From: Maritimibacter sp.
Lineage (GTDB): Bacteria; Pseudomonadota; Alphaproteobacteria; Rhodobacterales; Rhodobacteraceae
NCBI GenBank assembly: GCA_020441225.1
Contig: JAGRMP010000506.1
Coordinates: 1 to 8,266, forward strand
DNA: 8,266 nucleotides
Reading direction: 5' to 3'
This document shows, piece after piece, positions 2,190-8,266 of this stretch (position 1 is the first letter of the stretch; each line of letters begins with the position of its first letter). The notes under the pieces were generated by a model, which worked only from the letters and a program-made list of their open reading frames with translations, was not told the DNA's origin and did no database searches. Position numbers and translations under genes: made by a program.

Positions 2190-3689
2190 GTGCGGACAGT
2201 CTGGTCGATCTTATGGGCGCTCTGGCTCGCGGTCCTTGCCGCGCTGCCGCTCCGCGCCGAGACCGTGACCGATCTCGCCCCCTTCCGCTGGGACAGCACC
2301 CGGCCGCAGGTGCTGGTGCTCGAGGGCGAGATCACCCGGCGCACCCCGCCGCTGCTCGGCCTCGCGCTCGGTCGGTTCGCCGATGTTGCGGTGCTGGAGC
2401 TGTCCAGCCCCGGCGGCGACGCCTATGCGGCGATGGCGATGGTCCCGACGATCCGCGCCGCCGGGCTCGCGACCCGGATCGGAGCGGGGGACAAGTGCCA
2501 TTCCGCCTGTTCCTTCCTCTACTTCGCCGGGGTGGAGCGGACGGCGGAGGGCGAGCTCGGCGTCCACCAGCTCGCCTCCGCCAACGAGGCGTCGGGGCAT
2601 TTCATCATGAACGACGTGCTCGACGTGTTCTCGGATCTCGGCCTGCCCGACATGGTACGGCGACGGATGATGCAGACGCCGCCCGACCAGATGTATGTCT
2701 TTACGCCCGAGGAGCTGGTGGCGCTGGGTCTGGTCGGCCCGGCGCGCCCCGCGGTCGCCGCCGCGCCCGATCCGGCGCCCGATCCCGCGCCAGTCCCCGA
2801 TCCGGCCCCAACCCCGGCTCCCGATCCAGCCCCCGACCAGACGGCCACCCATATCGCCCTCGATATCGCCGGCGAGGCCAACGGGCGCGTGGTGATCGAG
2901 CTCTATGACGACATCGCTCCCGAGCATGCCGCCCGCCTCACCCGCCTCGCCCGCGAAGGCGCCTATGACGGCGTGGTCTTCCACCGGGTGATCGACGGGT
3001 TCATGGCCCAGACCGGCGACGTGGAGTTCGGCAAGGCCGGCGGCGATCTCTCCCGCGCGGGCACCGGCGGCTCGGCCTATCCGGACCTCGCGGCCGAGTT
3101 CTCCGACACCCCCTTCGTCGCCGGTACCGTCGGCATGGCCCGGGCGCAGGACCCCGACAGCGCCAACGCGCAGTTCTTCATCACCTTCGGCCCCGCGTCC
3201 TATCTCGACGGCCAGTACACTGTGGTCGGAAAGGTGGTCGAGGGGATGGATGTGGTCAACGCGATCAAGCGCGGCGGCGGCGACAACGGCGCGGTCGAGG
3301 GCACGCCGGACCGGATCACCCGCGCAGTCGCGCTGGATGCGCAGGGCCGGCCGCTGGCCGCGGCCGTGCGGCTGGTCGCCACCGCCAGCGGCGCAGCGGT
3401 CGAGATCCTGGGGATGCGATTGGCGCCGGTCAGCGACGCCGTTAGGGCCGAATTCTCGCTCGCAGCTGGGGCAAAAGGCCTTCTGGTGATCGAGATCGAC
3501 GAAACCAGCAGAGCCTACGAAAAAGGCGTCCGAAGTGGCGACGTGATCGAAGAGGCCGGGCAAATAGCCGTCGGCTCGGTCGCTGAGTTTTCCGATGCGA
3601 TCGAGGCGATCCGCCAGCAGGGCCGGAGAAACATACTTCTGATGATCCGAGCTCAGGGCAAGCCCAAGTTCGTGTCTTTTTACATGTGA
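2190..3689 (+). CDS. Periplasmic ClpP-like serine protease fused to cyclophilin PPIase and HtrA-type PDZ
   Basis: The 499-residue protein starts at a GTG. Residues 1-23 are a signal peptide (cut after LRA). About 38-183 is a ClpP/SppA-fold domain of the predicted-periplasmic-protein type: LSSPGGD at 71-77, Ser105 in KCHSAC, His126 in GVHQ and Asp166 in TPPD, matching the ClpP Ser-His-Asp triad by motif. Residues 193-216 are a Pro-Asp-Pro-Ala linker. About 220-378 is a cyclophilin domain with Arg266, Phe271, Met272, Gln274 and Phe330 at the positions of CypA Arg55, Phe60, Met61, Gln63 and Phe113; CypA Trp121 and His126 are replaced by Tyr338 and Tyr343. About 403-499 resembles the second PDZ of DegP/Do proteases (LGMRLAPVSDAVRA; YEKGVRSGDVIEEAGQ). 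The inferred role is to bind, isomerise and cleave envelope proteins. The frame is unbroken across all junctions. Codon use changes abruptly in the PDZ tail. Confidence 0.92.
   Translation: MRTVWSILWALWLAVLAALPLRAETVTDLAPFRWDSTRPQVLVLEGEITRRTPPLLGLALGRFADVAVLELSSPGGDAYAAMAMVPTIRAAGLATRIGAGDKCHSACSFLYFAGVERTAEGELGVHQLASANEASGHFIMNDVLDVFSDLGLPDMVRRRMMQTPPDQMYVFTPEELVALGLVGPARPAVAAAPDPAPDPAPVPDPAPTPAPDPAPDQTATHIALDIAGEANGRVVIELYDDIAPEHAARLTRLAREGAYDGVVFHRVIDGFMAQTGDVEFGKAGGDLSRAGTGGSAYPDLAAEFSDTPFVAGTVGMARAQDPDSANAQFFITFGPASYLDGQYTVVGKVVEGMDVVNAIKRGGGDNGAVEGTPDRITRAVALDAQGRPLAAAVRLVATASGAAVEILGMRLAPVSDAVRAEFSLAAGAKGLLVIEIDETSRAYEKGVRSGDVIEEAGQIAVGSVAEFSDAIEAIRQQGRRNILLMIRAQGKPKFVSFYM
2766..2837 (+). 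repeat. Pro-Asp-Pro-Ala-Pro coding repeat (interdomain linker)
   Basis: Degenerate repeats of a GAT-CCG-GCG-CCC-like unit encode PDPAPDPAPVPDPAPTPAPD, residues 193-212, continuing to 216, between the ClpP-like and cyclophilin domains. This is a typical extended periplasmic linker. It could also vary in length by slippage or recombination, and it may mark where the domains were joined. Confidence 0.75.
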
Positions 3690-3786: not shown

Positions 3787-4902
3787 ATGTTCCGCCCTTC
3801 TACCCCGGTCCTGCCCATCCTTCTGACTCTGGCAGCGCTGACCGCCGCCCCCGCCACGGCAGGCCAGTGGACCCGTCTCGCCGCCGCCGACGAATTCGAG
3901 GATTGCGCCTTCGCCTTCACCGGCCCGATCAACCCCGGCGATCTCACCGGCATCCTCACCGACCCGGCCTGGAACGACGCCTTCCGCAAGCGGGTCTGCC
4001 TCGACAGCCCGGGCGGCAGCCTCAAGGAGGTCTACGACTTCATCACCGCCGAGGGCGACGAGGGGCTCGGCTTCGCCACCACGGTCAAATCGGACGCGCG
4101 CTGCGAGAGCGCCTGCGCCATCCTGTTCATGTTCGGCCAGTCCTGGGGCGCCAACAGCCCCTATCCCGACCGGATGCTCGAACCGGGCGCAAAGCTCGGA
4201 TTTCATTCGCCTTTCCTTGCCGGCGCCGACATCGCCGAGGACCAGCGCGAAGACGTGTTCCGGGTCGCGCTCGACGTCGCCAAGCTGCTGATGGACACCT
4301 CCTACAAAGCCACGACCCAGGCGGGCGCGCCCTTGCCTTATGAGCTCGTGTCGCTGGTGCTGAGCACGCCGGGCGACCAGATGCACTACGTCGAGACGCT
4401 GGGCGAGTTGAAGCTGCTCGGCATCGAGCGCCCCTACGACACCGAGGCGCGGGTGCGGATCGGGGCCGACCGGGCCAGCATCGCGGCGCTGGTCGAGCGG
4501 GTCTGCGTCTCAAGCTACGCCATGACCTTCCGCAACTGGCTGGTGGATGACGGCTACGATTTCAACGACCTCGTCGCCTATGTGCGCGAGACGCTGGCCT
4601 CGGGCGGCACCAATGTGGAAAACCTCGTCGAACTCCCCGCCTCCGATTACCAGGATCCCCGGATCGTCGGCATCCTGAGCGGGCCGTTCCACGTGCCGGG
4701 GTGGTATTCCGCGGGCGCGGCGCTCTATTGCCGGGCCGAGCTTTCGGTCGCGCCGGGCGCCGGGGTCTACGATGTCAGCGTCAACAATTTCAACGTCAGC
4801 TTCGGTCCGCTGTTCGACCTCGACGAGACCCCGCTGCCGGAGTGGAACGGCGAATACAACGTGATCTCGGCCGGCGTCGAGCCGATCGACACGCCGTTCT
4901 GA
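3787..4902 (+). CDS. Periplasmic ClpP-like putative serine protease with unrecognised C-terminal domain
   Basis: The 371-residue protein starts at an ATG preceded by AAAGG at seven bases. The signal peptide is MFRPSTPVLPILLTLAALTA..., cut near ATA-G at 25/26. A ClpP-fold domain covers about 36-215: CLDSPGGSL at 71-79, Ser108 in RCESAC, His140 in LGFHS and Asp197 in STPGD. These correspond to the nucleophile, base and acid of ClpP. Compared with its two neighbours it has about 11 extra residues between Ser and His, including a loop containing GANSPYPDRMLEPG, so it is the most divergent of the three. Cys40 and Cys71 may pair, as may Cys106 and Cys110 around the serine. Residues about 222-371 match nothing I know; Cys240 and Cys315 there may form a disulfide, and the end is rich in predicted beta strands. 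It likely acts in the periplasm; its substrate is unknown. Confidence 0.88.
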   Translation: MFRPSTPVLPILLTLAALTAAPATAGQWTRLAAADEFEDCAFAFTGPINPGDLTGILTDPAWNDAFRKRVCLDSPGGSLKEVYDFITAEGDEGLGFATTVKSDARCESACAILFMFGQSWGANSPYPDRMLEPGAKLGFHSPFLAGADIAEDQREDVFRVALDVAKLLMDTSYKATTQAGAPLPYELVSLVLSTPGDQMHYVETLGELKLLGIERPYDTEARVRIGADRASIAALVERVCVSSYAMTFRNWLVDDGYDFNDLVAYVRETLASGGTNVENLVELPASDYQDPRIVGILSGPFHVPGWYSAGAALYCRAELSVAPGAGVYDVSVNNFNVSFGPLFDLDETPLPEWNGEYNVISAGVEPIDTPF

Positions 4903-5061: not shown

Positions 5062-6495
5062 GTGAGCATTTGGGCTAACTTTGGCGGGATGGCGGCTTTG
5101 GCGCTTCTGGGCGCGGGCCTTGCCGCGCCGGTGCGCGCCGAAGTGATCACCGAATACGAGCCCTTCGTCTACGACACCGATACCCCGGACGTGCTGCAGC
5201 TCGACGGTGCGATCAACCATCGTGCGGCGGTGCTGTTCAAACTGGCGCTCAACGATTTTCCCAAGGTGACCACGCTCAGCCTGTCGAGCGAGGGCGGCTC
5301 GGTCTATGCCGCGCTGCCCGCCGCCTATGACGTGCGCGTCGCCGGGCTCAAGACCATGATCCCCGAAGGCAAGACCTGCGCCTCGGCGTGCTCGTATCTG
5401 TTCTTCGCCGGCGCCGAGCGGATGGCCGAGGGGCGGCTCGGCGTGCACCAGATCGCGACCAGCTCCGACAGCCTGTCGGACGGGCAGGTGACGCTGGGCG
5501 ACATCTTCAAGGCGTTCGAGGATTTCGGCGTGCCGACCTCGGTGATCAGCCGGATGATGCGCACGCCCGCGGATTCGATGTATCTCTTCGACCCCGAAGA
5601 AATGGAGCGCCTCGGCCTGCTCGGCCCGGTGCCGGGGGCGACCGAGGTGCCGGTCGAGGCCCCCGCACAGGTGGCCGAGCCCGCCCCGCAACCGGCCCCG
5701 GTCCAGCCCACGCCCGACCCGCAGGTGGCCGAACCGGCGGCGCCGGCCGTGCCGGACCCGGCGCCGGCGGAGGACACCCAGATCGCCGCCGTCGAACCCG
5801 CGCCGGCGCCGCCCACCGAAATGGCGGACAGCGAGGGGCTCGACGCCGCGACCAACGCGCTCGACCCGCTGGTGGCCGCCTGTTTCGACGCGGCGCTGCC
5901 CTGGGCCAACGATTTCGGCTGGCCGGGCATCCGCTCGAAAGAGATCCAGACCGGGCGCGCGATCCCGGCCTGCGAACGCGCCCGGGCGCAGGCGCCCGAG
6001 AACGACTGGGTCACCATCTCGCTCGCCCGGGCGCTGGGCGAGGCGGGGCAGGACACCCGCGCCGTGTCGCTCTATGAGCCGGTCGCCAACCGCGGCCATG
6101 CCTATGCCCAGGGCAGCCTCGGGGTGTTCTACCTCAACGGCCGCGGCGTGGCGAAGGATCAGGGCCGGGCCTACCGGCTGTTCCTCGACGCCGCCGCCGA
6201 GGGCGATGCCACCGCCAATTTCGCGCTCGCCGTGATCAACGCTTTCCCGAGCCACACCATCGCCAACGATATGCAGGCGGCCATCGATTACGCCTATGAG
6301 GCGCTGGCCGCGGGCGAGGACCGCTCGCCGCAGATCTACCGCGACATCAACAAGTTTCCCCAAGCCGTGCGGGTCGGCGTGCAGCGCCGGTTGCAGCGCG
6401 AGGGCTTCTATTCGGGCGCGCTCGACGGGTCGTTCGGCCCCGCCTCGATGGCGGCGGCGCGGCTGCTTGCGCTCAGCCGCCAGGCCGAGGGGTAG
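5062..6495 (+). CDS. Periplasmic ClpP-like putative serine protease with Sel1-like and peptidoglycan-binding domains
   Basis: The 477-residue protein has a signal sequence (FGGMAALALLGAGLAAPVRA, cut near residue 26). The ClpP-fold domain at about 43-188 is clearly paralogous to that of the 2190-3689 gene: LSSEGGS at 74-80 (Glu where ClpP has Pro), Ser108 in TCASAC, His129 in GVHQ, Asp171 in TPAD, then MYLFDPEEMERLGLLG. A long Pro/Ala/Glu linker (about 188-260) follows, then a TPR-like helical region with Cys274 and Cys304. A Sel1-like repeat unit covers about 334-390 (GHAYAQGSLGVFYLNGRGV, then KDQGRAYRLF). A peptidoglycan-binding-1-like motif at about 436-471 includes VQRRLQREGFYSGALDGSFG. 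The family logic is a protease held at the cell wall, with Sel1 helices for partner binding. It lies 159 bp after the preceding gene, so it may be co-transcribed or have its own promoter. Confidence 0.92.
   Translation: MSIWANFGGMAALALLGAGLAAPVRAEVITEYEPFVYDTDTPDVLQLDGAINHRAAVLFKLALNDFPKVTTLSLSSEGGSVYAALPAAYDVRVAGLKTMIPEGKTCASACSYLFFAGAERMAEGRLGVHQIATSSDSLSDGQVTLGDIFKAFEDFGVPTSVISRMMRTPADSMYLFDPEEMERLGLLGPVPGATEVPVEAPAQVAEPAPQPAPVQPTPDPQVAEPAAPAVPDPAPAEDTQIAAVEPAPAPPTEMADSEGLDAATNALDPLVAACFDAALPWANDFGWPGIRSKEIQTGRAIPACERARAQAPENDWVTISLARALGEAGQDTRAVSLYEPVANRGHAYAQGSLGVFYLNGRGVAKDQGRAYRLFLDAAAEGDATANFALAVINAFPSHTIANDMQAAIDYAYEALAAGEDRSPQIYRDINKFPQAVRVGVQRRLQREGFYSGALDGSFGPASMAAARLLALSRQAEG
5623..5841 (+). 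repeat. Pro/Ala/Glu-rich coding linker
   Basis: This encodes roughly residues 188-260, with recurring QVAEPA and PDPAP units between the ClpP-like and helical domains. It is low-complexity and probably a flexible spacer reaching through the periplasm, comparable to the linker in the 2190-3689 gene. Confidence 0.65.
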
Positions 6496-6705
6496 GGCGG
6501 ATCGGGCAGGAGCTGCGGGACCGGAGCCGGAAACGGGGTCGGATCGGAACGACATCTCACGGCTTCGTGAGTACGCCGCACAGGACGCCTCGCGCGTCCT
6601 TGCCTAAGCTTTCCAATTGGAGGCCGGCAAAACCATGGTTCCGTACGCCTGGCCGTCGGTGTCGCGTTGTTGCCATGGAACGCAATTGAATTGGAGCACC
6701 AAGAT
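6496..6705. other. Intergenic region between third protease-like gene and cytochrome gene
   Basis: These 210 bp hold two short hairpins in the first half (6556-6571: CTCACG, GCTT loop, CGTGAG; and 6582-6600). The second half is A/T-richer and has several palindromic words: CCAATTGG at 6613-6620, AACCATGGTT at 6631-6640, CCATGG at 6673-6678 and CAATTG at 6683-6688. No clear -35/-10 pair or FNR-type box is visible. A possible 24-codon leader ORF occupies 6635-6709. Confidence 0.45.
6582..6600 (+). terminator. Hairpin, candidate weak terminator after the third protease-like gene
   Basis: AGGACGC (6582-6588) and GCGTCCT (6594-6600) pair perfectly around a five-base loop, 87 bases after the stop codon and just after another perfect 6-bp hairpin. 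Only TTGCC follows instead of a T run, so termination would be inefficient or factor-assisted. Confidence 0.35.
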
Positions 6706-6709
6706 ATGA
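6635..6709 (+). CDS. Possible 24-residue leader ORF overlapping the cytochrome start
   Basis: ATG at 6635 opens a frame encoding 24 residues (MVPYAWPSVSRCCHG... to ...NWSTKI). It stops at TGA 6707-6709, overlapping the cytochrome ATG at 6706 as ATGA, the classic layout for coupled translation. AATTGGAG precedes both this ATG (12 bases between) and the cytochrome ATG (9 bases between), so the same ribosome-binding context occurs twice. It has no recognisable domain; the adjacent cysteines are followed by His. It could be a leader peptide, a remnant of a duplicated start region, or chance. Confidence 0.3.
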   Translation: MVPYAWPSVSRCCHGTQLNWSTKI

Positions 6710-8266
6710 ACAGGCCATCACGTCACATGCTGTCCATTTCCGCCCTGGCGCTGGTCGTCGCGGGCGGGCTCGGGGCGCCCGCGCGCGCGCAGGGGGAAGG
6801 CGACATCAACTCGATCCTGCAGGGCGGCACCGACGAACCGGCAGCGCCCGCCGCACCTGCTGCGCCGGCGGAGACCCCTGCGGATACCGCGACCGACCCG
6901 GCGCCCGAAGAACCGGCCGCCCCCGCGCCGGATGCCCCGGCCACGGCCCCGGACGCCGACACCGGGACCGACACCACCGCCGCCCCGGCGACCGATTACG
7001 GCGACCCAGTTGCGCCCTTCGGCCTCGCCGATGCCGACCGGCCCTCGCTGGTTGCGGGCATCCGCCTCGACCAGGACGCGATCGGCGCGGGCGAGGTCAG
7101 CTTCCGGGCGATGATGGAGATCGGCCGCCACCTGTTCACCCAGCGCTTCACCGCCGAGGACGGCTACGGCGAAGGCCCTTACGGCCCGCGCGAGGTCAAG
7201 CGCCAGGAAGCCGACCACGGGCCGATGGCCGCCTTCGGCAAGCTGCCGTGGATGCGCGTGAACGGGCTCGACAGCCAATCCTGCCTCGAATGCCACTCGG
7301 CTTCGGGGATGCAGGCCGAGGGCTATGCCGCGGTGCCCGACAGCCGCACGATCCGCACCGACGGGCTGTCCGGCGCGGGCACCATCGCCACCACGGCGAT
7401 CATCAACCCGATGCAGCAGACGCCCGCCCCGACCTGGGCGCGCGACGCGCTCCTCGCCAACGGCTACCAGGACCCCGACGCCATGCTGGCCGTGTTCCTG
7501 CGCAACCCGCCGCATGTGTTCGGCGCGGGCTATACCCAGAGCGTGGCCGAGGAGATGAGCTTCGATCTGATCGACGCACGCTACCGCACGCTTGAGGCCG
7601 CCGCCGCCGATCCGGGCGTGGTCTATGAGATCGGGCTCGAATCCAAGGGCACGTCGTTCGGCGTCTACAGCGCTGCGGTGCGGCCCGGGTCGGGCGAGAT
7701 TTTCTTCGACCAGCTCGGCCCCTGCGGCACCAACCCGCAGCTCGACGAATATTGCGGCCAGATCGAGGGGGTCGGCGAGGACTTCATCGTCCGGCCCTTC
7801 CAGTGGAAAGGCATCGCGTCGAGCATGCGCAACTTCGTGCGCGACGCGCTCAACTTCCACTTCGCGATGACCCCGGACGAGCTGTCGCCGGGCACCCCCG
7901 ATCTCGACGGCGACGGGGTGGAGAACGAGGTGTCGGTCGGCGAGGTGACCGCGCTCACCGCCTTTGCGCTCAGCACCCGCCCGCCGGTCCAGGCCGAGGC
8001 CGAGACCGACGCCGATTATGCGCTGGTCGAGCGCGGGCGCTGGCTGTTCAACGGCGAGGATATGCCGGCGGGCTACGATGCCGGCGACAGCTGTTCGTCC
8101 TGCCACCACCCGTCGAAAGAGCTGTGGGACCCGACCGCCTATGTCCACGATCCCCGCACGCCCGAAGCGGCGCGCGTCGCTTCGGCGGAAAGCACCGGCG
8201 GACGTCCGGCGCTGATCGTCGAGGGCACCGGGGTCGGGCTCGGCCAGGCCGCGCCGCTGGGGCTGA
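6706..8266 (+). CDS. Exported di-haem c-type cytochrome, putative oxidoreductase (3' end beyond window)
   Basis: The frame starts at ATG 6706 (GGAG nine bases upstream) and stays open to the last base, giving 520 residues. The signal peptide ends near PARA-Q (28/29). An Ala/Pro/Asp-rich linker (about 44-100) precedes the catalytic part. Covalent haem sites are CLECH at 193-197, in the context NGLDSQSCLECHSASG, and CSSCH at 463-467, following GRWLFNGEDMPAGYDAGDS. The second context resembles the haem segments of MauG/CcpA and di-haem oxidoreductase (DHOR) families. A DLDGDGVENE loop at 399-408 looks like an EF-hand or dockerin-type calcium site, preceding VGEVTALTAFALSTRPP. It presumably carries out periplasmic electron transfer or peroxidase-like oxidation, but the substrate cannot be read. 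Haem attachment is near certain; family placement is moderate. Confidence 0.88.
   Translation, partial: MNRPSRHMLSISALALVVAGGLGAPARAQGEGDINSILQGGTDEPAAPAAPAAPAETPADTATDPAPEEPAAPAPDAPATAPDADTGTDTTAAPATDYGDPVAPFGLADADRPSLVAGIRLDQDAIGAGEVSFRAMMEIGRHLFTQRFTAEDGYGEGPYGPREVKRQEADHGPMAAFGKLPWMRVNGLDSQSCLECHSASGMQAEGYAAVPDSRTIRTDGLSGAGTIATTAIINPMQQTPAPTWARDALLANGYQDPDAMLAVFLRNPPHVFGAGYTQSVAEEMSFDLIDARYRTLEAAAADPGVVYEIGLESKGTSFGVYSAAVRPGSGEIFFDQLGPCGTNPQLDEYCGQIEGVGEDFIVRPFQWKGIASSMRNFVRDALNFHFAMTPDELSPGTPDLDGDGVENEVSVGEVTALTAFALSTRPPVQAEAETDADYALVERGRWLFNGEDMPAGYDAGDSCSSCHHPSKELWDPTAYVHDPRTPEAARVASAESTGGRPALIVEGTGVGLGQAAPLGL

Follow-up and report, generated by a model that had tools for sequence, protein, structure and literature searches.

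A predicted exported ClpP-fold module fused to a cyclophilin and a DegP-type PDZ domain in Maritimibacter sp., and its relatives with other partners

The stretch of DNA analysed here (the window; 8,266 nucleotides of contig JAGRMP010000506.1, assembly GCA_020441225.1, from Maritimibacter sp. of the Rhodobacteraceae) carries a gene in which an export signal (recognized by eye), a ClpP-fold module, a linker, a cyclophilin domain and a PDZ domain follow one another in that order. An earlier note, made from the sequence alone, had described one frame joining a ClpP-like protease domain, a cyclophilin and a PDZ. This observation was confirmed, with all three domains and the fusion itself supported, and the residues that it cited (including Ser105, His126, Asp166, R266, F271, Q274 and F330) were found where it had placed them. 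The parts of the gene are as follows, with guanine-plus-cytosine content given as GC and the AlphaFold2 model as AF2.

2190-3689, + strand: fusion gene, an uninterrupted 499-residue frame with a GTG start and GGAGGG upstream
2190..2258, + strand: export signal, residues 1-23; by eye, a hydrophobic stretch and then LRA-ET, with a helix predicted at 2-18 in the AF2 model
2259..2738, + strand: ClpP-fold module, residues 24-183
2739..2840, + strand: linker rich in Pro, Ala and Asp by sequence, residues 184-217; GC 0.83 over 2742-2845
2877..3326, + strand: cyclophilin domain, residues 230-379 (PF00160, 2.8e-39)
3393..3674, + strand: DegP-type PDZ2, residues 402-495 (matches to TIGR02037, P0016 and 7xs0_A)

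The fusion and the probable origin of its domains

The cyclophilin scored 135.3 bits against a PF00160 cut-off of 21.7. Arg, Phe and Gln residues of the R266, F271, Q274 and F330 type are catalytic in cyclophilins; all four are present in the window domain and are kept in each of the six fusions described below. At each of the 15 best loci in the family of genome G001, the best stand-alone cyclophilin was 65.6-74.5% identical to that of the window, and at each of the 7 of these loci that were inspected its start is, by eye, a hydrophobic stretch suited to export or anchoring. Since related stand-alone cyclophilins start in this way, an exported isomerase was probably joined onto an exported protease module. 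Such exported PpiA-type cyclophilins stand alone, whereas in the window protein the export signal leads into the ClpP-fold module. Acquisition of the cyclophilin was probably a single event, with an exported cyclophilin of Rhodobacteraceae as the source.

The C-terminal tail matched positions 341-432 of the 434 in the Do-protease profile TIGR02037 (8e-8), that is, the profile end. It also matched the serine protease Do P0016 (7e-8) in a search of 5.8 billion sequences, and the DegP-like PDB chain 7xs0_A (6.1e-9). The HtrA/Do-like PDZ proposed earlier is thus borne out as homology to PDZ2 of Do proteases. The Pfam PDZ models stayed below their cut-offs on this tail (PDZ_2, 18.3 bits vs 27), and AF2 prediction of the PDZ part, made from a three-row alignment that included two helper sequences, gave a mean predicted local distance difference test score (pLDDT) of 46. 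GC is 0.60 over the PDZ region (3390-3686) vs 0.70 for the module and the cyclophilin. On sequence grounds, the PDZ was probably drawn from a DegP-type protease and replaced an earlier tail. When viral contigs were scanned for DegP, 3 loci came up.

Protein searches with the module revealed five other proteins, P0004-P0008, in which a cyclophilin likewise follows the module, with 77-95% identity to the window protein in the module and 75-94% in the cyclophilin. The first protein search scored the best 7999 candidates by shared words, perhaps owing to the Pro/Ala linker, and was rerun without the linker. Because the five proteins share the join, misassembly of the ClpP-cyclophilin junction was rejected. 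In these searches the architecture recurs as module plus cyclophilin, and with PDZ in the window protein only. Behind the cyclophilin, P0007 and P0008 have little or no tail, and P0004-P0006 have a tail without significant Pfam family. In a tree of 39 of the 94 aligned modules (rows chosen and partner labels assigned by hand, midpoint rooting, several deep nodes weak at 0.06-0.33), the six fusions formed one clade (0.98), the PDZ form was nested inside the forms with the other tail (0.84 and 0.95), and WD40 and beta-helix forms stood next to the fusion clade (0.98 and 1.0). We infer that PDZ replaced the other tail in the window protein.

A syntenic locus, L006 of Rhodobacteraceae UBA9292, has stretches neighbouring the fusion site that are 70-81% identical to the window DNA. 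At the syntenic place (7996-8550) lies the front of a module, then a short remnant in another frame without cyclophilin; the remnant ends in FVTRFY, like the other tail, and is followed by the next gene at the same place as in the window. This broken copy fits either loss of the middle part from a fusion gene or collapse during assembly. The PDZ tail itself might be an assembly chimera, with the natural gene stopping behind the cyclophilin or finishing with the other tail of P0004-P0006, as the absence of PDZ from every other fusion, the GC difference and the FVTRFY ending in L006 would permit. Such a chimera needs two precise joins: the first behind the cyclophilin with the frame preserved, the second ahead of the next gene, whose position L006 shares. 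A database cluster also comprises 3 member sequences plus a 2,046-base contig, possibly not independent of the window. We consider this origin very remote.

Predicted fold and active site of the module

The predicted structure of the module has the ClpP fold, the structural matches listed being ClpP. The ClpP family profile PF00574 gave no Pfam match for the module of the window protein and only weak ones in 2 of 10 modules (best 0.065); NfeD1b_N matched 1 of the 10 (0.00075) and not the window protein's module; and among PDB sequences the module profile matched one of the NfeD/1510-N type best, though weakly (0.0076). No S41 family was among the Pfam or NCBIfam results for the window protein, and S41 was absent among the structural matches listed, which does not exclude it. 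The Pfam results included no trypsin family, the protease module having the ClpP fold instead.

Conservation was counted over 94 aligned modules, namely P0001, 12 database proteins and 81 locus or window frames. Duplicates of P0001 and incomplete modules (those whose profile match begins beyond 12 or stops short of 150), including window open reading frame 2 and the L006 frames, were left out. Most of these loci had been found by patterns containing the Ser or His motif, and a control set free of such patterns was drawn from 43 aligned profile-search loci, two of them truncated rows without the His column; 12 (L081-L092) came from genomes already in the set, and 31 modules are quoted. The residues concerned are given below, with counts for the 94 modules first and the 31 control modules second.

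2502..2504, + strand: Ser105, predicted nucleophile, in C103-x-S-A-C107; Ser in 94/94 and 31/31
2565..2567, + strand: His126, predicted general base, in GVHQ; His in 94/94 and 31/31
2613..2615, + strand: Asp142, candidate third catalytic residue; Asp 87 + Glu 5 of 94, Asp 18 + Glu 10 of 31
2685..2687, + strand: Asp166, third catalytic residue of the earlier note; Asp 37 + Glu 18 of 94, Asp 21 + Glu 6 of 31

The flanking Cys residues and Gly76 are kept along with Ser105 and His126 across the modules. Of the proposed Ser105-His126-Asp166 triad, the Ser-His pair is supported and Asp166 is neither shown nor excluded. Position 142 is acidic in 92 of the 94 modules and in 28 of the 31, and position 166 in 55 and 27, respectively. 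As an invariant catalytic acid, Asp166 was set aside on the 94-row count; with the control set it became a candidate again. Since it is acidic in 27 of the 31 control modules, the third residue is left unsettled and Asp166 is not rejected. Asp142 is a better conserved candidate in the larger set of 94.

A variable third residue would also suit a catalytically weak module that serves as a scaffold or oligomerization platform, presenting binding domains (cyclophilin, PDZ, PAN, SPOR, SH3) in the periplasm. Many of the partners are indeed binding domains, and P0006 has GVHK in place of GVHQ and lacks the first Gly of GG. A pure scaffold, however, should lose Ser and His somewhere, whereas both are kept in all 94 and all 31 modules together with the flanking Cys and Gly76, and the stand-alone modules (24 of the 31) have nothing to present. 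A scaffold role appears rather unlikely.

Paralogues, partners and spread of the module

The earlier note had presented the window protein as a unique three-in-one protein and a would-be new type of envelope quality-control factor, an interpretation that is partly supported. The fusion is real; it is one of three tandem module paralogues in the window (2190-3689, 3787-4902 and 5062-6495) and one of many forms of the module, and the emphasis therefore moves to a family with exchangeable partners. The profile used (A1) was built from ten rows, the third window paralogue among them.

3787..4902, + strand: second paralogue, a divergent ClpP-fold module with its own C-terminal part (A1 profile 4e-7; CESAC and GFHS kept)
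5062..6495, + strand: third paralogue, a ClpP-fold module with a Pro-rich linker, TPR/Sel1 and a PG-binding-like end (A1 profile 4e-74, its own profile row)

No Pfam family was found in the second paralogue, including its C-terminal part; it has a syntenic copy in the L006 frame 8397-9653. The partners in the third paralogue all lie below Pfam cut-offs (TPR_19 7.4e-5, Sel1 1.7e-4, PG_binding_1 0.0062).

Among genome contigs, 106 module loci were confirmed and 80 kept. Together with the window, these gave 85 C-terminal parts with a length of 30 residues or more, which were sorted by sequence into 18 groups; partner domains were named by Pfam or NCBIfam in representatives only. The partners were PAN in L021 (PAN_4 2.4e-19), SPOR in L009 and P0014, PG_binding_1 in L005 and L080 (and, preceding the module, in L009), SH3_3 in L002 and P0012, Sel1 in L058, YbjN in L004, beta-helix in P0010 and WD40 in P0009. 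In L023 (789-2258) the module is joined to a divergent polysaccharide deacetylase (PF04748 2.3e-22), and in P0011 (730 amino acids) to a DppA-like dipeptide-binding protein (SBP_bac_5 1.5e-94; NF043070 2e-190, below its cut-off). A 41-member group was labelled PAN from one scanned member and plasmid annotation; among the plasmid matches listed, three rhizobial ones are annotated as PAN domain-containing protein. These proteins share the N-terminal module and have a C-terminal PAN where the window protein has cyclophilin-PDZ.

The partners SPOR, PG_binding_1, SH3_3 and polysaccharide deacetylase are suggestive of the wall; brought there by such domains, the module might hydrolyse a non-protein bond, such as an ester or a peptidoglycan-linked amide, with cyclophilin and PDZ as general protein-binding additions; non-proteases do exist in the ClpP/crotonase superfamily. 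The DppA-like peptide-binding protein, the cyclophilin and the DegP PDZ, on the other hand, handle proteins or peptides, and the structural matches listed are ClpP. We judge such an activity improbable.

The module was present at 1e-20 or better in 54 of 198 genomes of the family of G001, at 1e-45 in 2 of 390 genomes of the order and at 1e-20 in 2 of 7 genomes of the genus, one of which had no cyclophilin match, looked for in two short pieces only. Most modules listed from L116-L139, in the family of G001, stand alone, with about 250-290 residues and no following domain. G003, the genome of L005, had 18 module-profile matches, an expansion in which some matches are pieces of one gene. A phage origin was not supported: a distant module occurred in 3 of 50,697 phage records, two of these being one phage, and a scan of viral contigs with the A1 profile found no relative.

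The remaining genes of the window are listed below; L006 has DNA similar to both of the first two.

280-1230, - strand: protein with a signal-like start and no Pfam family
1268-1921, - strand: OmpA-domain protein (PF00691 3.3e-15)
6667-8265, + strand: protein with CxxCH motifs, running off the window, with a weak di-haem peroxidase match (0.0035)

A proposed mechanism and its relation to known systems

The predicted ClpP fold, the conserved Ser, His and GG, and the cyclophilin and PDZ homologies are directly supported. On sequence comparison and structural modelling, we propose that the window protein is a serine hydrolase of ClpP fold that is exported, works without ATP and has domains for substrate handling attached in cis. 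It would most likely be a protease, and we put the probability of this reading at roughly 0.55. The periplasm is without ATP, and the attached domains, rather than an AAA+ unfoldase, would choose substrates for the module there. After export, the module would cleave unfolded or C-terminally exposed envelope proteins with Ser105 and His126. PDZ would capture exposed chain ends, and the cyclophilin would bind proline-containing unfolded segments and isomerize X-Pro bonds near the bound segment, which could then fold or enter the active site; other partners might direct the module to wall or peptide targets. Across the family, one secreted protease module would act alone or with exchangeable targeting domains that stand in for the AAA+ partner of cytosolic ClpP.

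Several points weigh against this proposal. The catalytic acid of the triad varies across modules: an acid stands at 166 or 167 in 80 of the 94, and at neither position in 14. ClpP acts as a double heptamer. In the full-chain AF2 model, pLDDT was mostly below 60 over the PDZ and the middle of the cyclophilin, so that the relative placement of the domains is not given by the model. Partners are evidently dispensable: in 24 of the 31 control cases the protein stops no more than 10 residues past the module, so that fusion to a partner is a habit of the family and not its rule. In the search of 5.8 billion sequences, PDZ was found in no fusion other than the window protein. Among the top matches listed from 394 genomes of the family of G001 (at most 3 candidates scored per genome), none spanned module and cyclophilin, the lowest query start being 186; the fusion therefore looks rare.

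ClpP itself works in the cytosol and depends on partners driven by ATP. The window protein shares with ClpP (S14) the fold and the conserved Ser and His; unlike ClpP, it is apparently exported and fused to other domains, and its module differs by the conserved CxSAC, the unsettled catalytic acid and the lack of an AAA+ partner in the window. NfeD/1510-N membrane proteases, the best PDB sequence match, use Ser-Lys and carry an NfeD domain, whereas the window module has a conserved His. Prc/CtpA (S41) resembles the window protein as an envelope protease with PDZ and a related fold, but has a Ser-Lys dyad, a different domain order and no cyclophilin. DegP/HtrA (Do) is the likely source of the PDZ2-like tail; its trypsin-fold domain is absent from the window protein, which has the ClpP fold and a cyclophilin instead. 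The consulted part of a 2008 survey reports extra domains in 3 of 121 Clp homologues, all of them NfeD (PMC2605481). No description of a ClpP-cyclophilin fusion was found in the literature searched, which included parts of PMC2605481, PMC12419801 and PMC3091676. Each domain is already known; the combination and the exchange of partners are unusual.

More tentatively, the family may form a broad class of ClpP-fold proteases that are secreted, need no ATP and have cis-fused, exchangeable domains in place of the AAA+ unfoldase, the cyclophilin and PDZ form possibly being a self-contained envelope quality-control enzyme that holds its substrate and isomerizes or cleaves it. If true, the exchange of partners on a secreted ClpP-fold module would be another route to ATP-free substrate choice, and the form with cyclophilin and PDZ would offer a simple test case for an isomerase and a protease acting on one substrate. 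The rhizobial PAN forms provide members of the module family in named, cultivated species.
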